Shown here in pieces: positions 1-9,229 of a DNA stretch of 9,229 nucleotides. Origin of the DNA: Prevotella sp. UBA7782 (lineage in GTDB: Bacteria; Bacteroidota; Bacteroidia; Bacteroidales; Bacteroidaceae); assembly GCA_002480935.1 (NCBI GenBank), contig DLDC01000218.1, positions 3,823 through 13,051 of the forward strand, in the 5' to 3' direction. The position numbers and the translations under genes are program-made. Every line of letters starts with the position of its first letter. Within the stretch, counting starts at the first letter, position 1. The notes under the pieces were generated by a model. It was not told where the DNA came from. It was given only the letters and a program-made list of their open reading frames with translations, and did no database searches.

Positions 1-601
1 GCCTGATTTGCGGTATGAAATCAGCCGCACGCACGATGGGGCCGGCCACCAGTTGGGGGAAGAACGACACGTAGAAGGCATAGTCTAACAGGCTCTGCAC
101 GGGCTTTATCTTGCCCCGATAGACATCGATGGTATAGCTCAGGCTCTGGAAAGTGAAGAAGCTGATGCCCACAGGCAGGAATATATCCCATGGCTTGAAG
201 GGCTGATGAAAGAGCTGGGCGATGCTTCCGAAAATGAAATTGGTGTACTTGAAGTAGCCCAGCAAGCCCAAATCAACCACCAGACTGAGTGCCAGCCACA
301 GCCTTCGCGAGCGTTTGTCGGCGGCATCACGCTGCCAGCACTTACTTATCTGATTGGCTATGAGGTAGTCGCTGGCCGTTACGAAGGCCAGAAGGAGAAA
401 ATAAAACCCGCTGCTCTTGTAATAGAAATAATAAGAAAAGGCTGTGACAAACGCCAGACGTACTGTTGTGCGCCTGCCCAAGAGCATATATACGAAGCTG
501 AAAGCCACGAAAAGCACCAGAAAGAGCCCTGTGCTGAAGATGAGAGGCTCTGAGGGATGATAGGTAAGCTCGTTGATGATGTTATGCCAAATCTGCTCCA
601 T
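1..601 (-). CDS. MBOAT family O-acyltransferase (AlgI-like), C-terminus off the left edge
   Basis: This is the N-terminal 200 residues of a membrane-bound O-acyltransferase; the frame stays open to the window edge. Hydrophobic, probably membrane-spanning segments lie near residues 20-41, 47-60, 65-82, 101-116 and 139-155. The family signature is visible near residues 179-198: FFPQLVAGPI, then R191, F195 and PQ. In AlgI, DltB and PatA, proteins of this family move an acyl group, usually acetyl, across the inner membrane to a polysaccharide. The family's catalytic histidine lies further downstream and cannot be checked here; a full-length member would be about 470-500 residues. The ATG at 601 follows a purine-rich Shine-Dalgarno-like site and lies 15 bases after the stop of the SGNH gene, so the two are probably co-transcribed as an O-acetylation pair. 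The family is secure; the substrate is unknown. Confidence 0.9.
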   Translation of the reverse strand, partial: MEQIWHNIINELTYHPSEPLIFSTGLFLVLFVAFSFVYMLLGRRTTVRLAFVTAFSYYFYYKSSGFYFLLLAFVTASDYLIANQISKCWQRDAADKRSRRLWLALSLVVDLGLLGYFKYTNFIFGSIAQLFHQPFKPWDIFLPVGISFFTFQSLSYTIDVYRGKIKPVQSLLDYAFYVSFFPQLVAGPIVRAADFIPQIR

Positions 602-608
602 GATGATT

Positions 609-615
609 CTTCCTT
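609..615 (-). promoter_or_regulatory. Ribosome binding site for the MBOAT gene
   Basis: On the minus strand, AAGGAAG ends 7 bases before the ATG at 601, inside the 15-base gap after the SGNH gene. It is the clearest Shine-Dalgarno-like site in the window, where most starts lack one, and it supports this ATG as the true start. Confidence 0.5.
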
Positions 616-616
616 G

Positions 617-1993
617 TTATTCTTGCTTTTCGGCTTGCTTGCGCCGCTTATAGTTGTCGAGGCCGTCGAGGAACGAACGATAGAAATATCCGGCCAGGCG
701 ATGCCCGCCCTTGAAGTTGATGTGCGTATAATCGAGGTTGGCCTCGCCTTGGTTGACGAGTCTGAGCATACTGTCTTTGCCACCCATAGCCTTGAAGAGA
801 TTGAAGAAGGCCACGCCACATTCAGAGGCCATGACGTTCTGCTGAGCCGACAGAAGCTCTATTGAGGGCATGGTGTGTATGCCCCTTGCGGTGCGTGAGT
901 CGCGGTCGGCCACGCCCACAATGAGTATGGAGGCCTGCGGAAAGCAACGGCGCAGCTTGGCTATGCTCTTCTTCATCTTCTCGCAATAGGCCTTGCAGTA
1001 GGCCGCGTCTGACGTTTCGGCCACGGCATTCACGCCATAATGCAGCACGATGAGGTCGTAGGGGCGCAGGCGGGCGTAGGCTTTCAGAATGTTTTCGGGC
1101 ATGGTGGCGATGGATGTTCCGGGTATGCCGCGCATGCCAAGATTGTCTAATATCACGCCACGGGGCGACTCCAGGGCCACGCCGTGCATCACGGTGCCTC
1201 GTCCGAAGGCCGAGAAGGCATAAGAAACGGATGTCATGCGCCCGTCCGTCTCCACCATCTGCAGGTCGGCAGAGGGGCTGAGCCGCCTCACGGCAGGTGC
1301 CGAACCGTTCATGGCAACGACCACGCTCACGCCTTGCGGTGCTATGCAGAAGAGTCGTGCCACCTGCCACTGCGCGGTGTGAGGCCTGAACGAGGTAGCC
1401 TTATAGGCCACCTTGGCCCCGGCAGATGGCAGCGAGTAGCGCTGGTTGACGCTTTGCAGCGCGGTGCTGAAGGCTTGCCTGTTGAGCAAGTCATAGCCGG
1501 TTAGGCCCGCAACGCTCATATCTACCGTGGGACGGAAGGCGTTGGTGCCCTTCACGCAGTCGGTCCAGCCGAGGCCGTTGCCGCCAAAGCGGGCTTGCAG
1601 CATCTCGCGCAGGTCGGCCAGAAGGATGTCACCTTCAACAAAAGAATCGCCGAAGTAAGCGATGCGCACGGGTCGGTTGAGCGACGACACGTTGGCGAGC
1701 ATGTCGTAGAAGTGGCTCATGCCGCCGTCGCGACCGTCAGAATAGTCGTCGATGGGCACTACTCCTTTGGCGTGCCTCTCATGAAAATGAGGAATGGAAG
1801 TGAGGTGACTGATGGGCTTGGGGGCCGGCAATACGTCGGGAAGATCAGCCTGCGACGTGCTGCCTATGTCAGACAGGATGTCTACGCTGCGCAGTTGCGT
1901 ACCCATAACGGTGATGGTGGGCAGATGATGCATAAACAGCAATATGGTAAGAACAATGCCTCCCAAAGCGAAAACCTTAGCCAACGAATTCAT
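617..1993 (-). CDS. SGNH/GDSL-fold hydrolase or acetyltransferase partner of MBOAT, membrane-anchored
   Basis: A 458-residue protein with one hydrophobic N-terminal segment (about residues 6-22), probably an uncleaved anchor that places the rest in the periplasm. Three SGNH blocks are visible: GDSF at 115-118 with the nucleophile Ser117, GVN at 320-322 with the oxyanion Asn322, and DYTH at 421-424 with Asp421 and His424 completing the catalytic triad. The middle part, roughly 195-280, is probably a beta-rich insertion and looks unlike a minimal GDSL esterase. SGNH proteins paired with MBOATs (AlgJ/AlgX, PatB) pass or remove acetyl groups on extracellular polysaccharide or peptidoglycan, and the MBOAT gene follows here after 15 bases. 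It has its own promoter upstream. The fold and catalytic residues are clear. Whether it acts as a transferase or an esterase, and on what substrate, cannot be read from the sequence. Confidence 0.88.
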   Translation of the reverse strand: MNSLAKVFALGGIVLTILLFMHHLPTITVMGTQLRSVDILSDIGSTSQADLPDVLPAPKPISHLTSIPHFHERHAKGVVPIDDYSDGRDGGMSHFYDMLANVSSLNRPVRIAYFGDSFVEGDILLADLREMLQARFGGNGLGWTDCVKGTNAFRPTVDMSVAGLTGYDLLNRQAFSTALQSVNQRYSLPSAGAKVAYKATSFRPHTAQWQVARLFCIAPQGVSVVVAMNGSAPAVRRLSPSADLQMVETDGRMTSVSYAFSAFGRGTVMHGVALESPRGVILDNLGMRGIPGTSIATMPENILKAYARLRPYDLIVLHYGVNAVAETSDAAYCKAYCEKMKKSIAKLRRCFPQASILIVGVADRDSRTARGIHTMPSIELLSAQQNVMASECGVAFFNLFKAMGGKDSMLRLVNQGEANLDYTHINFKGGHRLAGYFYRSFLDGLDNYKRRKQAEKQE

Positions 1994-2711: not shown

Positions 2712-3359
2712 TCAGATGTAATACTCGGCGGCGTCTACCAGACCGGCCCTGAAGGCATAGCGCGTGGCCTCATGCACGTTGTTGACGCCCAGTTTTCGGA
2801 AGATGTTCTTGCGGTGTGTGTTGACTGTGTGGAAGCTCGACATGCGCTTTTCGGCTATCTCGCGCGTGGTGAGTCCAAGGGCTATATCCTTGAGTATCTC
2901 TGTTTCGGTCTTGGTGAGCCGCACCTCGTCTTCGGCCACATGCTGAGGGGCGAGGAGCATCTCGGTCATGTGCTGGCAGATGTAACGCTTGCCGCGCATG
3001 GCAAAGTCTATGCACTCGCGTATCTCGGTGGCGGGAGAGTCTTTGAGAAGAATGCTTGTCAAGGAGCTCCCCCCGGTTACTCGCCTGACGAAATCAACGC
3101 TCAGATCGTCACTGAAGAGTATGAGCGGTGCCTCGCCAAAGCGCTGGCCGAACACCAAGAGGTCGGCTTCGTCGTTGAAGTTGAACAAGGTATAGTCTAA
3201 GACAACAATGGAGTGAGGATGCTCTTTGAGCTGATAAGCCAGCTCTATCTTGTCGGTTGCCACGCTGCACGTGACGTCCTTGAGCTTTTGCAACACATAA
3301 AACAGCCCGAAGCGGGTGATGTCTTGATTGTCTGCCAAAATAATATTCGTGATCTGCAT
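2712..3359 (-). CDS. NarL/LuxR-type response regulator
   Basis: A 215-residue two-domain regulator. Residues 1-125 form a receiver domain: Asp10 starts the acidic pocket, Asp55 (in VVLDYT) is the phosphoacceptor, Ser83 is the switch hydroxyl, and Lys106 (LLKDSP) is the conserved lysine. The second acidic position is Asn11 rather than Asp or Glu, which is a mild departure. Residues 147-207 form a LuxR/GerE helix-turn-helix: LTKTETEIL, then GLTTREIA, then the recognition segment with HTVNTHRKNIFRKLGV. No sensor kinase gene is in the window, so its partner is unknown. The gene lies 20 bases after the DUF5686 gene and 12 bases before the DUF4230 gene, and both spacings suggest co-transcription. 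It may regulate this envelope and inositol-lipid operon, but that is inference. Confidence 0.93.
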   Translation of the reverse strand: MQITNIILADNQDITRFGLFYVLQKLKDVTCSVATDKIELAYQLKEHPHSIVVLDYTLFNFNDEADLLVFGQRFGEAPLILFSDDLSVDFVRRVTGGSSLTSILLKDSPATEIRECIDFAMRGKRYICQHMTEMLLAPQHVAEDEVRLTKTETEILKDIALGLTTREIAEKRMSSFHTVNTHRKNIFRKLGVNNVHEATRYAFRAGLVDAAEYYI

Positions 3360-3379: not shown

Positions 3380-5950
3380 TTAAAACACCAGATTGAACCC
3401 TAAGCGTATGCCGCCCTTCTTAACACCGGGATAGTCTGTGTAGGTGAGGCGCCTCACATAGTCTATCTCCAGACACTTTAGGATGTTGTGAATGCCTACC
3501 ACGGCCTCGAGATAGGGGTCGCTGGTCATGAGTCTTGTGGCGGCAGGAAACTGAAAGAGCGTCGCGTCGGCGCGGTTGCGCTCCAAGAAGGGGTTGTTCT
3601 TGTCGGTCAGGGTGCCCCACATGCCCTTAAAGGCGATATACTCACGCCACTTGAGCCGCTTGAGCAGGGGCACGCGGTTGAAAATTTTGCCTGTCAGGTC
3701 CCACGCAAGATTGAATTGCGCGTATCTGTCATTGAGGAATTCCATGTTCTCCATCATATTGAACGAGCCCTGATGCTCGAAGTAGGAGGTGTTGACAGGG
3801 GGCATGATGAGCAGCACATAGGGCACCTTGTTCCACTGCGCGCCTGCCATGGCCCGCACGTCTATATGTCCCCAGCTGCCCAGCCAGAGCCGCTTATAGG
3901 CTGAGACGTCGGTTTGGTTATACCTGTATTGTCCGCCCAGCACGCCGCTCAGGCCCATAGCGTGCTGCAAGGTGAACTGCGGCGCGTCGAGATTGACCTC
4001 TATGCGGTTCTGCTTAGAGTTGATATAGGTTTGTCCGGGGCGATAGTCGAAGCCCAAGAGCAGCTCGGTGGTGCGCACATAGGGCACGGCCGCGCCTCCC
4101 GCCTCAGGCAGATGGTTGAACGCCAATGTGCCCGCGGGCTCCTGACGCTCGGCCTTCAGCGACAGCTCTGTGGCCAGTCCGCCCTCTGTCTCCCACTTGA
4201 AGTCGAGCATCTGACGGTTATAGAAGAACATCTCCTCCACCTTTGAGGGGCGGAAGGTCATGAAGATATTGTCTTTGTTGTGCTTGAGATACTTGTCAGA
4301 CCACGACATAACGTCTCGCGTAGTCTCGAAGGAGAGGGTGCGTATGGGGAACTCTATGGGCTGGTATTCGGGCTTATTAAACGAATAGGTGAACTTTGTG
4401 TCGTAATAATGCCGGTGTGAGTCGGTGCCATAGGCATAATATCCCTCCCAAAAGAAGTGTGGATTGAGCTTTGCCGTGGTGCGTGCCGAGAGTCGCAGAC
4501 GCAGACCGTCTACATAGTTCTTGGATATTAAAGTGTTGACAGGTCCCAGGTCTATCTTGCTGGGATTGCGTGGGCTGCCTGTCTCGATGAAGTTTTCTAT
4601 GAGGGCCTTTGCGCCAAACATGATCAACTTGAAGTGTGGCGTGCTATACAGGTTGCGCACAAACGTGTTCATGCCGGCCTCGCCTTTGGAGAGCTGCACC
4701 TTGCGATTGCGCTGCCAGAAGGCCTCATCCTGCATCTTGGCGTTGGGCAGATAGCGCGTCTCGGCCTTGCCACGGAACTCCTTGTCGGGTATCTCGCCGA
4801 AGGAGTAATCGCTCATTTGCGTCTGCCGGATGACCACAGCCTTAGATAACCGGTCGGTAAGCTCAAGCTCGGCTATCATGTTGTCGGTGGTGAGCACCCA
4901 CTCGCCGTTGTCCAACCGTGAGTATTCCTGCTCCAGACGCATGGCATCCACAAAGTTAACGCCCGTGTTGGAGGGCAGCTGCATGTCGCATTTCTTGACG
5001 TGCAGTGTGCTGTCGGCCAGCACATAGAGCTCACCGCGGAAGCCAAAGTCTTGCTGATTGGCCGGTATGAACTGCAGGCGTATGCACCTGTCGTGGTCTA
5101 CATAGACGGTGTCGTCGATGTAGAAATGATAGAACGATATGGCTGTTGAGCCTATAGGACTGGGAAATCGTTTTTGCAGAAGGTTGATTTGATCGTCGTA
5201 TAAGTCTATATCCTTGAACAAATCTTTTACCATCGTGTTGAAAGCCTGGCCTGTCTGTATGAGCTTGCTCACGCCTTGGGTGCTCTGTCCCAGCACGATG
5301 TCTTTCTCATCGCGCGGGTTGCGACGGTAGATGTGCCTTGTGGCGGTTTCGTCTACCGACACGGGCAGGATGAGCTTACGGGTGAACGGGCAGGTGTCTA
5401 TCTGGTTTCTGAGCCATGGATAGTTGCTGAACAGCCCGCTCTGAAGGTCGTTTGGCGTGATGTCGTTCACGGCTGTGGTGACCTTCTGGTACTTGTGATA
5501 TTGATAGAAGGGATTGTTGGAGAGGTCGGTGCGCTTCTTTGCCGCTATGACACGGCGCATAAGCTCTACGGCGGGGTTGTTCTTTCTCGAGTAGCCGCGC
5601 TTGCGCTTGGCTCTGACAACCACCTCCTCCAGCCTCTGGGCATCGGGTACAAGCACCACACTAATGTCTTGGGGGGTATTCTTATTGATGTAAACGCGCC
5701 GTCTTTTATACCCCACGGCGCTCACGGTGAGGGTTTCGCCCTCTCGGCGAAGGATGTTGAATTGGCCCGAAAGGTCGGCCGAGCAGCTGATGCCCGTGCC
5801 CTTATACGAGGCGCTGGCATAGGGTATGGGCTGTCCTGTCTGCACGTCAACCACCTTGCCTTGCAGGTTTTGGGCATTGGCAACGCAGGCCAATGCCCAA
5901 AAAAGAATGATATTGAATAGCTTATTAATCAATTTCCTCATCAGCTTCAT
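3380..5950 (-). CDS. DUF5686 outer-membrane protein with carboxypeptidase-regulatory-like domain
   Basis: From the ATG at 5950 this is an 856-residue protein. Residues 1-26 are a signal peptide: a basic start, a hydrophobic core, and probable cleavage after VANA. Residues about 28-105 resemble the carboxypeptidase D regulatory-like domain (LQGKVVD, then GQPIPYASA, with LEEVVVRAK just after it). The rest matches DUF5686, starting with RKNNPAVELMRRVIAAKK, and has the alternating pattern of an outer-membrane beta-barrel. It ends in Phe (GFNLVF), the usual terminal signal for barrel insertion. In-frame ATGs also exist at 5974 and 5941. The first would give an overlong n-region and a 50-base overlap with the MIPS gene; 5950 or 5941 fits the signal peptide better, and all overlap the MIPS stop. 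The function is unknown; surface-lipid or polysaccharide handling is possible but not shown. Confidence 0.88.
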   Translation of the reverse strand: MKLMRKLINKLFNIILFWALACVANAQNLQGKVVDVQTGQPIPYASASYKGTGISCSADLSGQFNILRREGETLTVSAVGYKRRRVYINKNTPQDISVVLVPDAQRLEEVVVRAKRKRGYSRKNNPAVELMRRVIAAKKRTDLSNNPFYQYHKYQKVTTAVNDITPNDLQSGLFSNYPWLRNQIDTCPFTRKLILPVSVDETATRHIYRRNPRDEKDIVLGQSTQGVSKLIQTGQAFNTMVKDLFKDIDLYDDQINLLQKRFPSPIGSTAISFYHFYIDDTVYVDHDRCIRLQFIPANQQDFGFRGELYVLADSTLHVKKCDMQLPSNTGVNFVDAMRLEQEYSRLDNGEWVLTTDNMIAELELTDRLSKAVVIRQTQMSDYSFGEIPDKEFRGKAETRYLPNAKMQDEAFWQRNRKVQLSKGEAGMNTFVRNLYSTPHFKLIMFGAKALIENFIETGSPRNPSKIDLGPVNTLISKNYVDGLRLRLSARTTAKLNPHFFWEGYYAYGTDSHRHYYDTKFTYSFNKPEYQPIEFPIRTLSFETTRDVMSWSDKYLKHNKDNIFMTFRPSKVEEMFFYNRQMLDFKWETEGGLATELSLKAERQEPAGTLAFNHLPEAGGAAVPYVRTTELLLGFDYRPGQTYINSKQNRIEVNLDAPQFTLQHAMGLSGVLGGQYRYNQTDVSAYKRLWLGSWGHIDVRAMAGAQWNKVPYVLLIMPPVNTSYFEHQGSFNMMENMEFLNDRYAQFNLAWDLTGKIFNRVPLLKRLKWREYIAFKGMWGTLTDKNNPFLERNRADATLFQFPAATRLMTSDPYLEAVVGIHNILKCLEIDYVRRLTYTDYPGVKKGGIRLGFNLVF

Positions 5951-7232
5951 AGCCACCCATCTCTCTGATGGCATTCTTCAGCATAGTGTACTGCTCGAAG
6001 AGGTTATTCACAGCCTGCTCGCCCTTGGTGTAATCGTGCATAGGACTCTTGAGGAAGAAGCTCAGGAAGCGCTGCGTTCCGTAGCGTCCGGCGCGTGCGG
6101 CAAGGTCGATGAGCAGAGTAAGATCCAGCAGCAACGGGGCTGCGAGTATGGAGTCGCGGCACAGGAAGTTAATCTTTATCTGCATGGGATAGCCCATCCA
6201 GCCGAAGATGTCGAGGTTGTCCCAACCCTCTTTATTATCGTTGCGCGGAGGATAATAGTTGATGCGCACCTTATGATAGATGTTTCCGTAGAGGTCAGGC
6301 TGGTCGTCCTTGCGCAGGATAGTCTCAAGAGTAGACAGCTTGCTCACCTCTTTGGTGTGGAAGTTGGCAGGTTCGTCGAGCACCAAGCCGTCGCGGTTGC
6401 CCAGTATGTTGGTAGAGAACCATCCGCTCAAGCCCAGGTTTCGCACCTTGAGGATGGGCGCGAAGCCGCTCTTCACGAGAGTCTGTCCGGTCTTGAAGTC
6501 CTTGCCTGCTATAGGCATCTTCACCTTCTCGGCCAGCTCCCACATGGCCGGTATGTCTACAGTGGTGCAGGGTGCGCCCATCACAAAGGGTGCTCCCTCG
6601 GTCAGGGCAGCATAGGCATAGCACATAGAGGGTGCTATATGCTCGCGGTCGTCGTCTTTCATGGCCTGCTCCAAAGCGGCCAGCGTGCCATGATACTGCT
6701 CGTTATAAGGAACGTAAATCTCAGTAGAGGCAGCCCAGATAACCACGATGCGGGCGCAGTTGTTGGCTTTCTTGAAGTTCTGTATGTCCTTCTTCAGCTC
6801 CAGCACCATGTCCCAGCGCGTCTTGCAGTCCTTCACATTGTCGCCGTCCAGGCGCTTGGCGTAGTTCTTGTCAAAGGCTGCTTTCATCGGAACAATCTTC
6901 TCCAGCTCATCACGAACGGGGTCTATGTCTTTCTGCTTGAGCACTTCGGCATACACAGCGGCCTGATAGGCATTCTGAGGATACACATCCCATGTGCCGA
7001 AAACGATGTCATCGAGCTTTGCCAAGGGCACTATGTCGGCGTAATGCAGGTATTTTTTGTCGGCTCCCTTGCCTACGCGTATCTTGTCATACTGCGTAGC
7101 AGAGCCTATAGGCTTGGCAAGTCCCTTGCGAGCCATTAATACTCCTGTCATGAAAGTAGTGGAAACGGCACCGCAACCAACTACCAGAATGCCCAGCTTA
7201 CCATCTGCTGGCTTTACGTTTGTTTGTTTCAT
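5925..7232 (-). CDS. ino1: Inositol-3-phosphate synthase (myo-inositol-1-phosphate synthase)
   Basis: A 435-residue enzyme of the NAD-dependent MIPS family, which isomerises glucose-6-phosphate to inositol-3-phosphate in the cytoplasm. The Rossmann NAD-binding start is LGILVVGCGAVSTT (13-26). The family's active-site motif GKDFKTGQT is at 243-251, with the lysines 244 and 247. Other MIPS-like segments are SGWFSTNILGNRDG (269-282) and CRDSILAAPLLLDL (358-371). The length is close to short prokaryotic MIPS and below the eukaryotic enzymes of over 500 residues. The start ATG at 7232 lies in an A-rich stretch with no clear ribosome site. A 53-base gap separates it from the upstream phosphatase gene, with no good promoter seen in it, so it is probably read from the same transcript. 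Its product would feed the neighbouring CDP-alcohol transferase. Confidence 0.95.
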   Translation of the reverse strand: MKQTNVKPADGKLGILVVGCGAVSTTFMTGVLMARKGLAKPIGSATQYDKIRVGKGADKKYLHYADIVPLAKLDDIVFGTWDVYPQNAYQAAVYAEVLKQKDIDPVRDELEKIVPMKAAFDKNYAKRLDGDNVKDCKTRWDMVLELKKDIQNFKKANNCARIVVIWAASTEIYVPYNEQYHGTLAALEQAMKDDDREHIAPSMCYAYAALTEGAPFVMGAPCTTVDIPAMWELAEKVKMPIAGKDFKTGQTLVKSGFAPILKVRNLGLSGWFSTNILGNRDGLVLDEPANFHTKEVSKLSTLETILRKDDQPDLYGNIYHKVRINYYPPRNDNKEGWDNLDIFGWMGYPMQIKINFLCRDSILAAPLLLDLTLLIDLAARAGRYGTQRFLSFFLKSPMHDYTKGEQAVNNLFEQYTMLKNAIREMGGYEADEEID

Positions 7233-7285
7233 GTCTATTATTTTATTAATTTGTTAAGGTAAAACACTTCGTATACAACGTTTCA

Positions 7286-8002
7286 TCACAATAAATATTG
7301 TTTGGCAAGTATGTTCAAATCATTCACAATGATGTCCGCTTCGTCACATCTGTCGGGCGTTTCGGTCCACCCTTCGCCCCTGAGCCATGCCGTGTGGCAG
7401 CCCAGCCGGTGGGCCGGAAGAATGTCGTTTTTGATGCTGTCGCCCACCACCAGCACCTCATCGGGCTGCCTGTTCAGAGCCTTCAGCCCCAGCTCAAAGA
7501 TGCGCTCGTCGGGCTTTCTGATGCCTACCTCAGCCGATTCTATCACGCCATCCACCAGGTTGAGAAGTCTGAACTCATGGAGCACGGTGCGCAGGTTGCC
7601 GTAGAAGTTGCTCACTATCACCATATTGTAATGTCCGCGCAGCATACTGAGCACCTCTCTGCTATGTTCTGTCACGCCGCACACGTCATGATAAACGCCC
7701 TGAAGCATGTCGGCCAGGCGCTGCTGCCTCTGAGCCGCGGTCTCACTGAGCCCGCCTTGCTGCTCAAGGAAGTCAAGCTCAAGACCTAGCTTCACCCTCA
7801 ATGTTTCATGAAAGGTATCGGCGGGCTTAATGAGGGCATGACTGCCGAGGTATCTCTCCGCATAGACATAAGCCTCACGAAAAGCGTCCTCGCTCACCGG
7901 AACGTTCATTCTTTGGTAAGCATGCCACAGCACTTTGCCCCAATGGCATCCGACCGTGTCGAGCGTACCGCCATAATCAAAGATGAGTGCCTTTATCTTC
8001 AT
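7286..8002 (-). CDS. HAD-family hydrolase, candidate inositol-phosphate or PIP phosphatase
   Basis: A 238-residue haloacid dehalogenase-type hydrolase with a helical cap after motif I (about residues 16-105). Motif I is DYGGTLD, with the nucleophile Asp9. Motif II is Ser131 in VIVSN, motif III is Lys163 in IRKPD, and motif IV is GDSIKND (187-193). Position 11, normally the second Asp of DxDxT and the general acid, is Gly, as in some HAD relatives such as YihX-type enzymes. Its start overlaps the CDP-alcohol transferase gene by 26 bases, which points to coupled translation and related work. By context it could dephosphorylate inositol phosphate before headgroup transfer, or phosphatidylinositol phosphate afterwards. 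It is soluble, with no signal peptide, so a membrane-lipid substrate would have to be reached from the cytoplasmic face. The family is sure; the substrate is inferred. Confidence 0.9.
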   Translation of the reverse strand: MKIKALIFDYGGTLDTVGCHWGKVLWHAYQRMNVPVSEDAFREAYVYAERYLGSHALIKPADTFHETLRVKLGLELDFLEQQGGLSETAAQRQQRLADMLQGVYHDVCGVTEHSREVLSMLRGHYNMVIVSNFYGNLRTVLHEFRLLNLVDGVIESAEVGIRKPDERIFELGLKALNRQPDEVLVVGDSIKNDILPAHRLGCHTAWLRGEGWTETPDRCDEADIIVNDLNILAKQYLL

Positions 8003-8966
8003 TGGCTGAAAGTATTTTACGTGTCAAGCCCAGGCACAGCTTTTCATGACGATGATGCATATATATGCATATCATGCTCATCACGATGATGTCTACAAGA
8101 AAATAAGCCCAGGGTATGTTGAGCAGGCAGAAGACATACAGGCAGATGGCCCGCGTGTTGAAAGTAAGTATATTAGTGAGTGGCATGAGGGGTCGGCTGC
8201 CGGCCAGAAATTCGTTTTTCAGGTCGGCGGGCAGCTTGTCCAGACCGCCATACCTGCGCCCAGCAGCCTCGCGGAGGCGCTGGAAAGCAGGCGTGCGCTT
8301 CTCTTGGCTGTTGCAATAATGCTGATAATTAAAATAGAAAGCCCTTGCCCAGAAAGCTCCCTTGCGGGGCAACGACAGATAGGTGGCGTGCATCTTGGCA
8401 TAGCTGTCGAGCTCGGCGCCCTGCCTTCCGTTAAGGAAGAAGAGGTGTATCTGCCTGTAATAGTCGGCCAGCGAGCTTTGGGGCGAGTGGCAGAGCACGC
8501 CTGCCACAAAAGCCAGGGCAAATATCCACCAGCCCCACAGAAATGTTGTGCCTGGCATGTTTTGCGGCATGAGCCTCAAGCAAAGGGCCAGATAGATGGC
8601 AAAGAACCACACATCGCCCGCGAAGCCATCGAGTATTCGGCCGGCCAGAGTCTTTTGTCCGGTGAGGCGGGCCAGCTGTCCGTCGGTTGAATCACAGAAG
8701 TTGGCGAGCATCAGCAGCGCCACTCCGGCTATGTTATGGGGCAAGTCGGTGTAGTAGAACATCCATCCGGCGCAGGCGCCCAGCACGATGGAGAGCAGGG
8801 TAATGGCATTGGGATGCACGCCGAGCCGCCTCCACAAAAGGGCAAAAGCCAGGCCTATGGGGCGCGTGAAGTGCACGTCGAGCCACTCCTCGGTGTCTTT
8901 TGATTTCATACTGGCGCGCAGCAGCTCGCCAAAACTTTCCGACTTATTATCTGTTATGTCATTCAT
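7977..8966 (-). CDS. CDP-alcohol phosphatidyltransferase, probable phosphatidylinositol (phosphate) synthase
   Basis: From the ATG at 8966 this is a 329-residue inner-membrane enzyme. The open frame reaches 9065, but the extra 33 residues run back across the intergenic inverted repeats and past the stop of the upstream gene, so the later ATG is preferred; it has AGAAAG a few bases before it. The CDP-alcohol transferase motif is DSTDGQLAR (92-100), then eight residues to Gly109, then Asp113 and Asp118. The last two Asp are four residues apart, not the usual three. Probable membrane segments lie near 36-48, 57-72, 78-92, 117-132, 142-158, 270-284 and 286-303. About 100 polar residues (160-262) form an insertion not seen in the usual family members of roughly 200 residues. 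With MIPS and a phosphatase next to it, transfer of an inositol headgroup onto CDP-diacylglycerol is the likely reaction. Other headgroups are possible. Confidence 0.87.
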   Translation of the reverse strand: MNDITDNKSESFGELLRASMKSKDTEEWLDVHFTRPIGLAFALLWRRLGVHPNAITLLSIVLGACAGWMFYYTDLPHNIAGVALLMLANFCDSTDGQLARLTGQKTLAGRILDGFAGDVWFFAIYLALCLRLMPQNMPGTTFLWGWWIFALAFVAGVLCHSPQSSLADYYRQIHLFFLNGRQGAELDSYAKMHATYLSLPRKGAFWARAFYFNYQHYCNSQEKRTPAFQRLREAAGRRYGGLDKLPADLKNEFLAGSRPLMPLTNILTFNTRAICLYVFCLLNIPWAYFLVDIIVMSMICIYMHHRHEKLCLGLTRKILSANEDKGTHL

Positions 8967-9048: not shown

Positions 9049-9229
9049 TTACAGCTCCATGCCACGGAGGCGCGCCGAAGGTGAGCTTTGCGGCAAACCG
9101 GGCAGGCGAGTCATGGCGCTGGCCGCTTCTTCACGGCACCTTGAGTAGCTGGGCCAGTCGTTGAAGTCTATGATATAAAACTTTCCGTCGTCGGTGATGA
9201 TGGCATCTCCGCCGTAGATAGGCACATGC
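9049..9229 (-). CDS. C-terminal end of an ATP-grasp-like protein, N-terminus off the right edge
   Basis: Only the last 59 residues are visible before the TAA at 9049-9051; the frame is open to the window edge. The stretch YGGDAIITDDGKFYIIDFND (5-24) followed by WPSY fits the final strands of an ATP-grasp fold, where Asp21 and Asn23 of the D-x-N pair would bind magnesium and WPS follows. The pattern of a hydrophobic strand, then Asp-x-Asn, then Pro and an aromatic residue resembles the end of ITPK-type inositol-phosphate kinases, but also of other ATP-grasp ligases. The last 15 or so residues, rich in Pro, Ser and Arg, look like an unstructured tail. It lies 82 bases upstream of the CDP-alcohol transferase, on the same strand as the inositol genes. 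The fold is a fair guess; the substrate is open. Confidence 0.6.
   Translation of the reverse strand, partial: HVPIYGGDAIITDDGKFYIIDFNDWPSYSRCREEAASAMTRLPGLPQSSPSARLRGMEL

Follow-up and report, generated by a model that had tools for sequence, protein, structure and literature searches.

A conserved ATP-grasp gene in an alternative inositol-lipid cluster of Prevotella and its predicted place in a proposed CDP-inositol route

The window analysed here, a stretch of 9,229 nucleotides from Prevotella sp. UBA7782 (GenBank assembly GCA_002480935.1, contig DLDC01000218.1, positions 3,823 to 13,051 of the forward strand), carries on its minus strand three adjacent genes coding for a myo-inositol(-3)-phosphate synthase (MIPS), a HAD-family hydrolase (HAD) and a CDP-alcohol phosphotransferase (Table 1). 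They lie where the original prediction, which read them as an inositol-lipid biosynthesis cluster, had put them: Pfam supports each of the three, and both the 26-base overlap between the transferase and HAD genes (7977-8002) and the 53-base gap between the HAD and MIPS genes (7233-7285) are as it claimed. The MIPS passes its Pfam cut-offs at 328.9 bits (PF07994, cut-off 25) and 106.3 bits (PF01658, cut-off 27) and matches the solved inositol-3-phosphate synthase structure 7nwr. A fourth minus-strand gene (9228-9049), which that prediction did not include, is cut by the window edge; the 59 residues present in translation are the end of a protein, here called UP, which received no Pfam assignment and whose full-length relative has the ATP-grasp fold.

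The text of Heaver et al. 2022 (PMC9246714) distinguishes, for Bacteroides and Prevotella, two kinds of gene cluster around MIPS: BT_1522-1526, which follows a route through phosphatidylinositol phosphate (PIP), and an alternative one made up of genes for an NTP transferase (NTPT), a CDP-alcohol transferase and a HAD hydrolase, for which a CDP-inositol donor and no PIP intermediate are proposed and described as unconfirmed. In the parts covered of later papers, the alternative route is still called predicted or a variant (PMC10191378, PMC12482443). With its adjacent MIPS, CDP-alcohol transferase and HAD genes, the window covers the greater part of an operon that belongs to this alternative, Bacteroides vulgatus-like inositol-lipid cluster. 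The original prediction was in the right field, the Prevotella route without PIP that it mentioned is exactly this cluster, and what it first described had thus been published before as a hypothesis (PMC9246714). Our genes share with the published cluster MIPS, the CDP-alcohol transferase and HAD, together with NTPT in relatives, as well as the DUF5686/carboxypeptidase-regulatory and flippase-type neighbours. They differ in that the paper's text assigns HAD as the phosphoinositol dihydroceramide (PI-DHC) synthase and names no ATP-grasp gene (0 occurrences, though its figures may draw one; PMC9246714). No naming of an ATP-grasp kinase for the alternative cluster was found in the open-licence literature, in which this paper was covered by its text, its figures and supplements falling outside.

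The conservation of UP emerges from related loci, which come from a scan of genome contigs that used an alignment of 17 transferase sequences as the query (547 were confirmed and the best 80 kept, with titles of Prevotella and related genera; counts exclude the window itself). The full set in these relatives comprises NTPT, UP, the CDP-alcohol transferase and HAD, often with MIPS and a DUF5686 protein; NTPT lies beyond the window, and its membership is read from these loci. By domain order, NTPT-UP-transferase is kept in 75 of the 80, with HAD next in 62 and a DUF5686 gene inserted before HAD in 11; two of the 75 (L062, L068) have a UP match broken across two frames. A homologous open reading frame for UP is found in 77 of the 80, at 47-83% identity. 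Among the five exceptions to the order, three lack a local UP (L009, L012, L033): the genomes of the first two have it elsewhere, adjoining NTPT, and in the genome of L033 no UP was found. In the other two, L053 and L054, the genes are split into UP-HAD-MIPS and NTPT-transferase groups, an arrangement that would suit UP and HAD working on soluble inositol. Chance adjacency of the cluster genes was considered and rejected, given HAD homologues in 80/80 and MIPS homologues in 29/80 loci and the conserved order.

An independent draw of 295 genomes from the same order as the window organism gives a concordant distribution. UP occurs in 39, MIPS in 48 and the transferase family in 43 (E <1e-40; 55 when E is allowed up to 0.001). 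Both UP and the transferase are present in 38 genomes, UP without the transferase in one, the transferase without UP in five and neither in 251 (Fisher p 3e-41, uncorrected for relatedness). Larger stretches were fetched for 20 of the 39 UP-positive genomes, and every one of the 20 keeps the order NTPT, UP, transferase, HAD. Three more UP genomes were compared: this order recurs in G339, the genes of G320 are spread over two contigs, and in G189 UP adjoins a different, canonical transferase and MIPS. At L121 (134-4968, minus strand), UP adjoins MIPS and a CDP-alcohol transferase with the canonical motif, possibly in a mixed or BT-like cluster.

Gene content, order, motifs and fusions are direct observations. 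NTPT is fused to UP in seven loci, a single polypeptide of 820 aa unites NTPT, UP and transferase in another (L091), and the transferase is fused to HAD in five. That UP belongs to the pathway is indicated most strongly by the three-way fusion. The canonical serine palmitoyltransferase model NF047600 scores above its cut-off in 36 of the 39 UP genomes as against 52 of the 256 others; a search with a more distant protein, from L104 (357 bits to NF047600, cut-off 640), matched 231 of the 295 genomes and did not discriminate. The L104 gene itself (655-1926, minus strand), a divergent BioF/serine-palmitoyltransferase-like gene, adjoins MIPS, and its genome gave no match to the canonical model at E up to 1e-130. 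Prevotella veroralis, which according to the text of Heaver et al. 2022 makes PI-DHC by high-performance liquid chromatography-mass spectrometry (PMC9246714), has the full cluster including UP (L055). We are highly confident that these genes form an inositol-lipid cluster.

In profile comparison with solved structures, the nearest relatives of UP are inositol-phosphate kinases and one ATP-grasp protein of another kind (7drm): ITPK4 is matched at 0.002 and ITPK1 at 0.019, and a broader profile gives 9.5e-5 and 0.0013 for the same two and 0.0018 for an Entamoeba ITPK. The ITPK family PF05770 is the Pfam family with most member matches, albeit below its cut-off (8/45, best E 0.015); three UP proteins searched against it up to E 1 gave none. 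The Asp-x-Asn motif of UP aligns with that of ITPK, whereas 7drm has Glu-x-Asn; it is kept in 98 of 101 UP copies, three being unread (for the transferase and HAD below, motif counts cover the 101 readable copies of each family, with unread ones left uncounted). ITPK and PPIP5K are eukaryotic, and reportedly also archaeal (PMC8024741), ATP-grasp inositol-phosphate kinases. Compared with these, UP shows local similarity and no match above a curated cut-off, and RimK-type ligases outscore them by fold. On balance we lean towards UP being an inositol or inositol-phosphate kinase.

The motif of the transferase has the first three aspartates and the glycine, with Gly at D3+4 and Asp at D3+5, and so departs from the canonical DX2DGX2AR...GX3DX3D. 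The displaced aspartate recurs in 17/17 and 30/30 aligned relatives, whereas alignments place Asp at +4 in three solved transferase relatives; of the readable copies, 91 carry Asp, 8 Asn and 2 Glu at position +5, and none carries Asp at +4 (the AlphaFold2 model has a confidence, pLDDT, of 88.8). The transferase scores 20.7 bits as PgsA (cut-off about 109) and 21.2 bits as PssA (cut-off about 107), and an ordinary enzyme of either kind was rejected. NTPT resembles the inositol phosphate cytidylyltransferase (IPCT) structure 2xme (0.0013), 4mnd and others. Outside the cluster, paralogous transferases (L112-L120) have another cytidylyltransferase nearby in seven of nine loci, TagD-like (PF01467) in six and IspD-like (PF01128) in one; in L114 and L120 none was recognised among their partly scanned neighbours. 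Since the paralogues go with different cytidylyltransferases, CDP-headgroup donors fit better than CDP-diacylglycerol, and CDP-inositol is the probable donor for the cluster's transferase. In L113 and L115-L119 the paralogue stands with the TagD-like enzyme and an SDR-like protein, with an acyltransferase in L113, where scanned; L112 has the IspD-like enzyme in place of the TagD-like one. These seven clusters may make other phospho-headgroup lipids. A cytidylyltransferase-made CDP-headgroup for a ceramide lipid has a precedent in Caulobacter CpgD, which differs in using CDP-glycerate rather than CDP-inositol and whose acceptor step is a putative one there (PMC12275187).

A further line of evidence comes from genomes that keep the cluster and lack MIPS. 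The genomes of 50 of the 51 loci without local MIPS divide into 32 with MIPS elsewhere and 18 without, and five UP genomes of the independent draw lack PF07994. When the 23 MIPS-negative genomes were re-searched with PF01658, only G233 matched: there (L091, 10149-11285) an actinobacterial-type MIPS follows HAD (TIGR03450, 374.7 bits, cut-off 638) and apparently replaces the usual one. In the remaining 22, the cluster is kept and no MIPS is detectable by either search; Hoylesella enoeca and Segatella baroniae are examples of species in which none was detected. UP is present in all 18 of the first set (partly masked in L062, split in L068); ten of these bear isolate names rather than metagenome-assembled genome titles, and some of the absences may be assembly gaps. 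A cluster without MIPS is simply explained by a kinase acting on scavenged inositol. Tannerella forsythia, going by a paper title alone, is said to incorporate exogenous myo-inositol; a further literature search on this gave no gene data.

These observations bear on the two reaction orders offered in the original prediction, PIP synthesis followed by dephosphorylation, or free inositol followed by transfer from CDP-diacylglycerol. Both omit the upstream NTPT and ATP-grasp genes, whose conservation suggests a third order, from inositol phosphate through CDP-inositol to lipid transfer. Apart from the MIPS reaction, which rests on close homology, each step below is a prediction from sequence. HAD would remove the phosphate from inositol phosphate; UP, as an ITPK-like ATP-grasp kinase, would phosphorylate free inositol; NTPT would convert inositol phosphate and CTP to CDP-inositol; and the transferase would pass phosphoinositol from CDP-inositol to a lipid alcohol, namely diacylglycerol and perhaps dihydroceramide directly, with no PIP step. 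Since free inositol would be a substrate of UP, scavenged inositol could feed the pathway as well. The product of MIPS is D-inositol-3-phosphate. Direct activation of this compound would attach the lipid at D-3, unlike in host phosphatidylinositol; were the route to pass through free inositol, by way of HAD and UP, it is UP that would set the ring position and hence the headgroup stereochemistry.

Taken as a whole, we regard this kinase-fed CDP-inositol route as an evenly poised proposition, with HAD as its weakest step. A phosphatase action of HAD on inositol-3-phosphate is possible and would agree with the UP-HAD-MIPS grouping in L053 and L054; we put its action on a soluble inositol phosphate at somewhat short of even. 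HAD phosphatases typically have a DxD motif I, with an acid/base Asp at D+2, and some active ones also lack that residue. Here the nucleophile Asp is present and D+2 is Gly, as in 101/101 readable copies (three rows unread). Two findings weigh against the proposed route: HAD persists where MIPS is missing and in five loci forms one protein with the transferase, a poor fit to an inositol-3-phosphate phosphatase, and the top fold matches of UP are the RimK and ArgX/LysX ligases.

The fold matches would be explained if UP were an ATP-grasp ligase that adds an amino acid or peptide to the inositol product, making the cluster one for a decorated inositol lipid. The 7drm profile match, which spans most of UP, and the source name of P0208, RimK-type ligase-like, agree with this. 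However, the metal motif is the ITPK-like Asp-x-Asn, UP is fused upstream with NTPT and not after the lipid step, and the Prevotella lipids reported in the parts covered of two papers are plain PI-DHC (PMC9246714, PMC10865984), so that a ligase seems improbable. The transferase-HAD fusions, one of which the text of Heaver et al. 2022 notes in P. veroralis, are in line with the scheme published there (PMC9246714), in which NTPT turns the MIPS product directly into CDP-inositol, the transferase makes phosphatidylinositol from that and diacylglycerol, HAD converts this phosphatidylinositol to PI-DHC, and no part is named for UP. This scheme leaves unexplained both UP, though it is fused to NTPT in eight loci, and the 22 MIPS-less genomes; moreover, the small HAD matches PF00702 and showed no resemblance to AUR1/PAP2-type lipid phosphotransferases in our scans. 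We consider it unlikely, if less so than the ligase.

A conventional PIP route, of the kind that B. thetaiotaomicron and mycobacteria use, would have the transferase join CDP-diacylglycerol and inositol-3-phosphate to PIP, from which HAD would release phosphatidylinositol. The best NCBIfam model for the transferase is indeed archaetidylinositol phosphate synthase, with phosphatidylinositol phosphate synthase among the next, but all such models fall far under their cut-offs (48.6 bits against 180 and 29.2 against 170, and 13.5 against 350 for NF052561, the BT_1523-type PIP synthase), the canonical fourth Asp is misplaced in 101/101 readable copies, and the conserved NTPT would be without a role; this route is about as improbable as the ligase. 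Relative to BT_1522-1526, the cluster shares MIPS and a PF01066 transferase and differs in the transferase family, in having HAD in place of a PgpA-type phosphatase, and in the NTPT and UP added in relatives. For thermophiles, Jorge et al. reportedly set out in 2015 how ether inositol lipids are made by way of CDP-inositol. The thermophile IPCT/di-myo-inositol-phosphate phosphate (DIPP) synthase likewise combines an NTP transferase and a CDP-alcohol transferase with a CDP-inositol donor; in our cluster the genes are separate or otherwise fused, the sequence similarity is low, and ATP-grasp and HAD genes are extra. The likeness of NTPT and the transferase to domains of this bifunctional enzyme, and the fact that the di-myo-inositol-phosphate pathway ends with a phosphatase, a part HAD could play, speak for a soluble or polymer-linked product such as a di-myo-inositol-phosphate-like solute. 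Flippase-type and outer-membrane-type neighbours, the serine palmitoyltransferase association and the PI-DHC of cluster-bearing P. veroralis (PMC9246714) favour a lipid, and make a solute a very remote prospect.

Downstream of MIPS, and overlapping its gene by 50 bases, lies the DUF5686 gene, a homologue of which occurs in 76 of the 80 related loci; its product is a conserved neighbour of the cluster. A LuxR-type regulator follows it (2712-3359, minus strand), with a homologue in 22 of the 80. Farther along, an MBOAT/DltB-like acyltransferase fragment and an adjoining 458-aa protein without a Pfam match occupy 2-1993 (minus strand), an arrangement familiar from surface O-acetylation systems. 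For the transferase, the start at GTG 9065 in the open reading frame list was rejected, as the length would exceed that of relatives, and ATG 8966 was taken. A promoter and terminator scan gave 12 promoter-like sites (5.2 expected) and 12 terminator-like sites (6.0 expected), with a single weak promoter-like site in the intergenic gaps (9043-9014) and no minus-strand terminator-like site in the gaps between cluster genes; it was not used as evidence.

Table 1. Genes of the cluster and its conserved neighbour in the window
Feature	Coordinates	Strand	Details
Outer-membrane-type protein, CarboxypepD_reg-like and DUF5686 domains	3380..5974	-	PF18939 1.7e-43, PF13715 5.9e-16
MIPS, myo-inositol(-3)-phosphate synthase	5925..7232	-	435 aa; PF07994 5e-98, PF01658 1.1e-30; 7nwr 4.1e-181
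HAD-family hydrolase	7286..8002	-	238 aa; PF00702 5.5e-16; motif I FDYGGTLD
CDP-alcohol phosphotransferase	7977..8966	-	329 aa; PF01066 2e-12; motif DSTDGQLAR-x8-GRILDGFAGD
UP, ATP-grasp protein, C-terminal piece	9049..9228	-	last 59 codons and stop of ~265 aa; IIDFNDWPS motif

The cluster itself had been described before. What is new here is the conservation of UP, its three-way fusion with NTPT and the transferase, the set of genomes without MIPS, the shifted aspartate and the pairing of paralogues with cytidylyltransferases. A conserved UP fused to two enzymes of the route makes the alternative route testable, and it would be a six-gene system. At its most extended, and held only tentatively, the proposal is that UP is a bacterial ITPK-like kinase supplying a Kennedy-type route by way of CDP-inositol, that the transferase acts on dihydroceramide directly, that MIPS is optional, and that gut and oral relatives of Prevotella make their inositol sphingolipids with scavenged inositol. 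Should UP prove to be a kinase, it would stand for a bacterial branch close to the inositol-phosphate kinases that has gone unannotated, and the MIPS-less species would rely on inositol from the diet, the host or other microbes. Further, if the ring position of the headgroup differs from that in host phosphatidylinositol, host enzymes might treat the lipid differently.

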